Source: Acidimicrobiaceae bacterium (GTDB lineage: Bacteria > Actinomycetota > Acidimicrobiia > Acidimicrobiales > RAAP-2). Taken from it: 64,000 nt of DNA. Positions 48,944-51,067 of this stretch are shown here, piece after piece. A model generated the notes under the pieces. It was not told where the DNA came from, ran no database searches, and saw only the letters and a list, made by a program, of their open reading frames with translations. Numbering within the stretch: the first letter of the stretch is position 1; each line of letters opens with the position of its first letter. The position numbers were made by a program, and so were the translations under genes. The stretch lies in contig PMLV01000070.1 of NCBI GenBank assembly GCA_003160635.1, positions 82,878 through 146,877 on the forward strand, read 5' to 3'.

Positions 48944-49288
48944 ATGCTGGTCGAGACTGCGGTCGAGGCAGCACGGCGCTTCGGGGACCGGCCCGCCTTC
49001 GTCACCGACGAGGGATTGTCGCTCGGTTACGCAGAGTTCGATCGCATCTGTGACGAGACCGCGGTGGGGCTGGCGGAGCTCGGGGTGGCGCAGGGAGACG
49101 TGGTCGCACTCGCACTCCCGCCGACGCCCGAGCATTTCATCGCCTACCTCGCCGCGGCCAAGCTCGGGGCCGTCACCGCCGGGGTGAATCCGAAGCTGGT
49201 GGCGAGCGAGCGCGAGGACGACGTGGGGCCCGGGCCGGCGCACCTAGGTTGCAATTCGGTTGCCCGTGCCCGTTTTGGCTGGTTCTGA
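48944..49288 (+). pseudogene. truncated AMP-dependent CoA ligase (N-terminal ~90 aa only)
   Basis: MLVETAVEAARRFGDRPAFVTDEGLSLGYAEFDRICDETAVGLAELGVAQGDVVALALPPTPEHFIAYLAAAKLGAVTAGVNPKL, then unrelated sequence and stop. Confidence 0.7.
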
Positions 49289-49315: not shown

Positions 49316-49400
49316 ACTCTGACCACAAAGGCAAACCCCTCGCGAGGGGGGGACGCAAAGCTACGGGACTCTCTGAGTGAGCCGGGTTGCCGGAATGGAT
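49316..49400 (+). ncRNA. c-di-GMP-I (GEMM-I) riboswitch aptamer
   Basis: GGCAAACC-CCTCGCGAGGGG-GGGACGCAAAGCTACGGG-ACTCTCTGAGT-GAGCCGGGTTGCCGG matches the GEMM-I core order; located in the leader of 49455 CDS. Confidence 0.88.
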
Positions 49401-49454
49401 TCTTTTCGACCATTTCCGTGATTGCCGTCTTTCCCAGCGTCCCCGGGAGGACGT

Positions 49455-50960
49455 GTGGGGCGGATGGGACGGACACGAGATGGGCGGTCGCTGACACCCG
49501 CTATAGGTGGGCTGGCGGTTGCCGCGATCGCGTGTGCGGCTGTCATCGGCGGCGGGCTGTCGCTCCCGGCCGGGGCAGCGGGCATCCTTCCGCCGAACAA
49601 CCCTCCGAGCGATATCGCGCCGAGCAGCAGCGACTACCTCACATCGATCGACTCGGCCCGGGCGCAGGAGGGCGTCGGCCCCCTCAACATCTCCGAGGCG
49701 ACGCTGTCGAGCCTTCCCGTTCCCGAGCAAGCATTTATCGTCGTCAACGACGAACGTATCGACCGGGGCCTTCCGGCGATCAGCGACATGACCTCCCAAC
49801 TCAACGCGGATGCGCAACAAGGGGCAGATGGCGGAGTCGATCCCGCTTTTCCCAGCTCGCTCGGCGGAGGCAGCCAGATGAGCTGGGGTGGTTCGATTTG
49901 GGCCGGCGGGCTGGCGTCGGTGTTCGAAGCCGATTTCTACTGGATGTACTCAGATGGCTATGGCGGCGTGCAGGGCCAGACGACGAATTCGAGCTGTTCC
50001 CCCCGCTCACCCGGCGGCTGCTGGGGTCACCGCGACATCATCCTGCACGAGTTCAGTTCGTGTGGCACTGGCGCGCCGACGATTTCGATGGGTGCGGCAT
50101 TCTCGTCGACCGGATCCCCGGGCGGCTCGCTGGCCGTGCAGTTGGTCGGCACCTGCGGCCCCCCACCCGCCGGCATCACCCTGACGTGGAATCAGGTCGT
50201 CGACAGCGTTCTCACGCCACCGCACATCATCGGCATTGCCACCCTTACGGACGGCCTCGGGTATTGGGAGGCCGAGTCGAACGGTGACGTCGCGGCCTTC
50301 GGCGCAGCCCAGAATTACGGGTCCCTCGTGAACGTCCCACTCAACTCGCCCATCGTCGGGATCACCGCCACCCCGGACGGGCAGGGGTACTGGCTGGTGG
50401 CCGCCGACGGCGGCATCTTCACCTTCGGTGACGCAGCGTTCTTCGGCAGTACGGGGGCGCTCCGCCTCGTCGCACCCATCGTCGGCATGGCCTCGACCCC
50501 GGACGGGCAGGGGTACTGGCTGGTGGCCGCCGACGGCGGCATCTTCAGCTTCGGTGACGCCACGTTCTACGGCAGCATGGGTGGCATCGCCCTCAATCAG
50601 CCGATTGTCGGTATGGCAGCCGATTCGGTGACCGGCGGGTACTGGCTGGTGGCCGCCGACGGCGGCATCTTCAGCTTCAATGCCCCCTTCTTCGGGAGCA
50701 CCGGGGCGCTGCACCTCGTCCAGCCCATCGTCGGGATGGAGGCACTTCCCGACGGCCAGGGCTACCGGTTCGAAGCGGCCGACGGGGGTGTGTTCGATTT
50801 CGGCCAGGCGACCTTTGCCGGTTCCATGGGCGGTCACGCGCTGGTGGCACCCGTCGTGGGGATGGCGGCGGACCAGGCCACCGGCGGGTACTGGCTGGTG
50901 GCCGCCGACGGCGGCATCTTCGGCTTCGGCGATGCGGCGTACTACGGGCGGATCAGCTGA
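49455..50960 (+). CDS. secreted CAP/SCP-domain protein with C-terminal ~42-aa repeats
   Basis: GTG 49455 with GGGAGGA SD; signal peptide-like LAVAAIACAAVIGGGLSLPAGAAG; CWGHRDIILHEFSSCGTG; repeated GYWLVAADGGIFxFGDAxFYGS. Confidence 0.85.
   Translation: MGRMGRTRDGRSLTPAIGGLAVAAIACAAVIGGGLSLPAGAAGILPPNNPPSDIAPSSSDYLTSIDSARAQEGVGPLNISEATLSSLPVPEQAFIVVNDERIDRGLPAISDMTSQLNADAQQGADGGVDPAFPSSLGGGSQMSWGGSIWAGGLASVFEADFYWMYSDGYGGVQGQTTNSSCSPRSPGGCWGHRDIILHEFSSCGTGAPTISMGAAFSSTGSPGGSLAVQLVGTCGPPPAGITLTWNQVVDSVLTPPHIIGIATLTDGLGYWEAESNGDVAAFGAAQNYGSLVNVPLNSPIVGITATPDGQGYWLVAADGGIFTFGDAAFFGSTGALRLVAPIVGMASTPDGQGYWLVAADGGIFSFGDATFYGSMGGIALNQPIVGMAADSVTGGYWLVAADGGIFSFNAPFFGSTGALHLVQPIVGMEALPDGQGYRFEAADGGVFDFGQATFAGSMGGHALVAPVVGMAADQATGGYWLVAADGGIFGFGDAAYYGRIS
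50360..50950 (+). repeat. intragenic repeats encoding GYWLVAADGGIF(S/T/G)F units
   Basis: Near-identical DNA gggtactggctggtggccgccgacggcggcatcttc recurs four times. Confidence 0.85.
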
Positions 50961-50984: not shown

Positions 50985-51027
50985 CACCTTTGATCGCCAC
51001 CTTTGATCGCCACCTTTGATCGCCACC
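50985..51027. repeat. tandem 13-bp repeat (cacctttgatcgc) x3 plus partial
   Basis: Exact tandem copies in the intergenic region. Confidence 0.95.
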
Positions 51028-51067
51028 AGCGCCAGCGCGTGAGGATCCGGCACGCTACCGTAGCCCG

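Follow-up and report, generated by a model that had tools for sequence, protein, structure and literature searches.

Comparative evidence for a c-di-GMP-I riboswitch upstream of an exported CAP-like/beta-propeller protein gene in an uncultured soil Acidimicrobiia genome

Does the leader of an exported protein gene in an Acidimicrobiaceae bacterium sense a second messenger and, if so, which one, and by what route could binding reach the gene? The leader lies within a 64,000-nucleotide stretch of DNA, hereafter the window. We read the element that it carries as a GEMM-I (c-di-GMP-I) riboswitch, with a probability of about 0.9, lying ahead of a gene whose exported product joins a CAP-like domain to a beta-propeller. 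This predicted switch is well supported and adds a member to a known switch family, not a new kind of thing. The two features concerned are as follows.

49321–49395, plus strand: c-di-GMP-I aptamer (RF03167, 65.1 bits; RF01051, 61.2 bits; pocket table over 59 copies)
49455–50960, plus strand: exported protein gene, starting at GTG 49455 or ATG 49464 (orthologues, structure models, Foldseek)

A covariance search of 4227 Rfam families against the 64-kb window returned 49321–49395 as the sole riboswitch match, the other matches being two tRNAs. RF01051, the c-di-GMP-I model against which the original prediction had proposed checking the element, matches significantly (gathering score 35), and the GEMM-I core is present as it had been described, with GGCAAACC, the GCGA-capped P2, GGGACGCAAAGC, the ACTC-TCT-GAGT tip of P3 and GCCGGGTTGCCGG all in place. 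Membership of RF01051 therefore stands; the best-scoring model is, however, RF03167 (c-di-GMP-I-GGC; E 4.2e-13, gathering score 59), whose diagnostic G47 is absent here. Folded alone, the window sequence has unremarkable energies (z −1.2 to −1.5), and the support for the candidate riboswitch is comparative rather than a matter of single-sequence folding energy.

The likely ligand can be read from the binding pocket. In the type member Vc2, the ligand is contacted by G20, A47 and C92 (PMC4744006), with A47 stacking between its two guanines (PMC9049102). The window equivalents, with positions 20 and 47 fixed by the 27-base spacing between them, are G at 49330, A at 49357 and C at 49390. Across an alignment of 59 copies drawn from the host genome and its relatives, G20 and A47 are invariant (59/59 each) and C92 occurs in 52 of 59; the equivalents of the interhelical C44–G83 bases are C in every copy (59/59) and G in all but one, which has a gap there (58/59), and C and G in the window. 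Because G20 and A47 are found in all 59 copies and C92 in 52, we regard the window element as a canonical c-di-GMP pocket on a GGC-scoring backbone, and both the covariance models and the pocket bases agree with the class and ligand originally proposed.

The 'GGC' in c-di-GMP-I-GGC, which we take from the consensus to denote bases 20, 47 and 92, implies a different pocket: at 47 the RF03167 consensus shows G (GCGAAgC), against GCAAAGC in the window. A true c-di-GMP-I-GGC variant with altered ligand specificity would fit with RF03167 being the top-scoring model in the window, above its cut-off, and with its passing the cut-off in 15 of the 18 copies in the host genome, but it is a very improbable reading given the A at 47 in the window and in 59/59 aligned copies and the scores of RF01051, which lie above the cut-off for 18/18 genome copies. 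Filing the window element under RF03167 is ruled out by A47, despite 65.1 bits against a gathering score of 59; a top-scoring Rfam GGC assignment can thus disagree with the pocket base.

Riboswitches of the cGAMP-binding GEMM-Ib type carry A at position 20. The G before CAAACC had been cited as the sign of a c-di-GMP binder, a conclusion that holds although the position does not: the discriminating base is position 20 (49330), two before CAAA, and position 21 (49331), directly before CAAA, is also G. A cGAMP-binding GEMM-I variant would share the scaffold, and some of the 33 GGDEF matches in the host genome could in principle make cGAMP, but its probability is close to negligible when 59/59 copies have G in place of A at position 20 and the neighbours of the copies include EAL and HD-GYP c-di-GMP phosphodiesterases. 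Geobacter cGAMP-binding GEMM-Ib elements resemble the present ones in scaffold and in the many copies per genome, of which G. sulfurreducens carries 17 of GEMM-I (PMC8835794), and differ in base 20, which is G here, in phylum and in the genes regulated.

As a separate observation, copies in other genera and in G003 (L057, L058, L060, L063, L106 and L113, with L063 and L106 being one locus) have U for C at position 92 (G20/A47/U92). All of them lie before genes for prepilin-like proteins whose N-terminal end has a methylation-type segment; the one protein checked gave a weak PF07963 match, below the cut-off. A U at 92 could pair with adenine, and a cGAMP preference of these copies is conceivable.

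The gene product is predicted to consist of a signal peptide, a CAP-like domain and C-terminal GYWLVAADGGIFSFGDA-type repeats. The GTG at 49455 is a possible start, as originally suggested, but the ATG at 49464 in the same frame is another candidate. The CAP part of a first full-length structure model was too poor, and the N-terminal domain was remodelled alone with more relatives; the resulting model (pLDDT 84) finds GAPR-1 as its best Foldseek match (E 2.2e-3, probability 0.99, TMt about 0.5), and nearly all of its first 21 matches are CAP/PR-1 proteins. The C-terminal repeats model as a beta-propeller and match beta-propellers in Foldseek. As modelled, the product resembles a CAP-like domain joined to a beta-propeller, and the earlier description of an exported CAP-domain/repeat protein finds backing in the orthologues, the CAP/PR-1 matches and the propeller-folding repeats. 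Relative to the CAP/SCP/PR-1 superfamily, the likeness lies in these matches to GAPR-1, PR-1 and beta-propellers, and the unlikeness in a Foldseek E of only 2e-3, in the lack of a CAP match for the window protein against Pfam and in repeats that are matched by no Pfam or NCBIfam model.

Orthologues within the genus are 74% (G001) and 67% (G002) identical, and both keep the riboswitch directly upstream; no riboswitch is detectable upstream of the G003 orthologue (64%). The window also carries, at 48944–49288, the N-terminal part only of an AMP-binding gene (PF00501 positions 3–85 of 384), an acyl-CoA synthetase-type remnant that ends just before the putative operator described below. G002 has the complete gene before the riboswitch–gene unit, and in G001 the unit directly follows an aldehyde dehydrogenase gene; from the AMP-binding gene of G002 and the window, together with this aldehyde dehydrogenase neighbourhood, we conclude that the synteny is old. 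Just past the gene, at 50985–51030, a CCTTTGATCGCCA-like unit is repeated head to tail in short copies.

How ligand binding could be relayed to this gene would depend on two hairpins that follow the aptamer.

49391–49418, plus strand: hairpin H1, CGGAATGG (49391–49398) with CCATTTCCG (49410–49418) (covariation, P1a swap test, window fold)
49432–49460, plus strand: hairpin H2, TCCCAGCGTCC/GGACGTG-TGGGG (fold, sister-leader hairpins, covariation)

H2, which holds the Shine-Dalgarno sequence GGGAGGA (49445–49451) and the GTG start (49455), was absent from the original prediction and was found here, as were the 17 sister copies and the common upstream operator; the fold of 49428–49464 reaches −17.5 kcal/mol. 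The 59 copies were found with a covariance model (R1) built on the aptamer together with the leader, and covariation was assessed on 57 distinct rows over seven helices. Across aptamer, H1 and H2, 91.5% of cells are paired, where shuffled columns give 80.0% and slid versions never exceed 50.5%, and 30 pairs are changed on both sides against 18.8 in shuffles, in an alignment that was fitted to the tested structure and is biased in its favour. Two-sided changes affect 6/6 pairs of H1 (84.6% paired), which bears out the 3′ hairpin 49391–49398/49410–49418 that had been proposed, 5/5 pairs of the H2 outer stem (89.3%) and 4/4 of its inner stem (82.8%). Independently of the alignment, most leaders of the genus form a hairpin over the ribosome-binding site when folded singly. 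In most sister genes the spacing between aptamer and start codon is nearly constant. Between the H2 stems, the window (49436–49439) and sister leaders share an internal loop with a conserved AGCGR opposite CUGA/CGAA that is reminiscent of a kink-turn.

The 5′ arm of H1 is also the 3′ strand of an extended P1, and the 5′ and 3′ flanks of a copy pair better with each other than when swapped (p 0.004 in the genus, 0.0002 outside it). Since the 5′ flank prefers its own 3′ flank, extended P1 appears to compete with H1 for one strand. The window copy scores low among intact copies of the genus (75 bits) because its closing helix P1 is weak and the linker of its platform longer: CCAC/GCCGG replaces the CGAA/GCCGA of relatives, and its P1a pairing (−1.0 kcal/mol) is weaker than the mean of the swaps. 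A P1 this defective, together with the truncated copies found elsewhere (L018, L102), would suit a relict whose aptamer fold is intact but that no longer switches; we consider this quite unlikely, however, as the pocket bases, P2, P3, H1 and H2 are all intact in the window and two other species retain the leader ahead of their orthologue.

In a leader that still switches, binding of c-di-GMP would stabilise P1; as P1 and H1 share a strand, H1 would open when P1 forms, and the opened H1 would free its 3′ arm beside H2, so that the ribosome-binding site could be held more or less tightly. Translational control seems the likeliest mode for the window leader because of the covariation of H1 and H2, the hairpin over the ribosome-binding site in sister leaders and the competition between P1 and H1. 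Transcriptional control by the same riboswitch, by comparison, seems unlikely. H1 does sit between aptamer and gene, and terminator platforms are known in the class, for example Bc1 (PMC11218506), but no U-run was seen by eye after H1 or H2 in the window, and the ribosome-binding site and the start both lie within H2, here as in sister leaders. For translational control, OFF may be slightly more likely than ON, about 55:45, as U's released from the H1 arm can extend the stem of H2; constrained folding showed no clear difference (mean opening of the ribosome-binding site 0.34 with P1 on and 0.37 with P1 off, p 0.25).

The window leader is one of many. The draft host genome (6.9 Mb, 91% complete, 8% contamination) has 18 near-identical c-di-GMP-I copies, a number that this contamination may inflate; among 99 relatives the maximum is 7, and most have none. 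Three host copies precede genes for c-di-GMP enzymes, namely PAS-HD-GYP (L033), EAL (L034) and GGDEF-EAL (L032) proteins, and at the level of sequence these are the strongest in-silico evidence for c-di-GMP as the ligand. The 33 GGDEF matches of the host genome also count in favour of the c-di-GMP-I reading. Most other host copies precede exported proteins; genes downstream of copies include the following.

L025: glycosyl hydrolase 26-like protein with a TIG domain
L029: TIG-domain protein
L027: beta-helix protein
L031: DUF1360 protein

In same-genus relatives, the switch also stands before proteins with the GYW repeat of the window protein (L098, L103, L107 and L108). These genes place a large c-di-GMP riboswitch regulon in uncultured soil Acidimicrobiia, made up mostly of exported glycosidase-like, beta-helix and propeller proteins; among the open papers searched, no text brought riboswitch, c-di-GMP and Acidimicrobi- together. 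Behind their signal peptides, the exported products at L003, L006 and L012 (and the L001 leader) carry a GPNGQQRRPV-like motif in common, as if this N-terminal end had been copied along with the leader.

Compared with RF01051 and Vc2, the copies are alike in the P1–P2–P3 scaffold, the G20/A47/C92 pocket, the C44–G83 bases and the exported and c-di-GMP-turnover genes downstream. They are unlike in that two hairpins recur as a platform at the ribosome-binding site, and in that a single leader design is reused ahead of some 18 different genes, mostly together with a common putative operator further upstream. With RF03167, its highest-scoring model, the window element shares the overall sequence profile, and it differs in A47 against the G47 of that family's consensus.

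The shared upstream element is a tandem repeat.

49247–49263, plus strand: putative operator GGTTGC-N5-GGTTGC with an 11-bp period (sequence pattern)

A third, degenerate repeat (CGGCGC) begins upstream of it at 49236. The putative operator occurs 56–81 nt upstream of 14 of the 18 riboswitch copies in the genome, strand-matched, and many aptamers of the genus are preceded by 11-bp-period GGTTGC units and TTGACW-N17-CANTGT (promoter boxes read by eye); the TTGACW box was not seen in the window promoter. With up to three mismatches, the triple repeat has 58 sites genome-wide against 40 in the reversed control, and 14 of the 58 are riboswitch-linked, which is vanishingly unlikely under a uniform model, although the model is crude and the counts were made after the pattern had been seen. 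Allowing at most one mismatch leaves six sites, five of them riboswitch-linked. The GGTTGC pair alone was rejected as a specific operator, having 69 genome matches where the reversed control has 74; specificity requires the triple repeat.

By these patterns, the window gene appears to belong to an unusually coherent regulon with some 18 riboswitch copies and with the putative operator in the majority of their promoters. Eleven other sites (at most two mismatches) include three before GGDEF or GGDEF-EAL genes without a riboswitch.

L153, L158 and L161 (G000 C228, C246 and C297): operator before riboswitch-less GGDEF or GGDEF-EAL genes

One such case recurs before a similar gene in a second species (L195; G001 C183). 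What is new here is the candidate tandem GGTTGC operator common to most of the riboswitch promoters and to these three riboswitch-less GGDEF genes. We tentatively propose, as a possibility that falls short of likely, that one operator, whose 11-bp period is the spacing typical of response regulators of the OmpR/PhoB type, drives both c-di-GMP turnover genes and riboswitch-bearing exported-protein genes, the whole block of operator, promoter, riboswitch and ribosome-binding site having been multiplied before unrelated genes. If true, this would make a circuit of two layers, with a single regulator setting c-di-GMP and its riboswitch targets jointly. The defined operator sequence gives a handle for finding the partner regulator.

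Among all copies, the aptamers at L017, L018 and L102 are truncated or altered, with parts of P3 or P1 gone, and are probably decayed copies.
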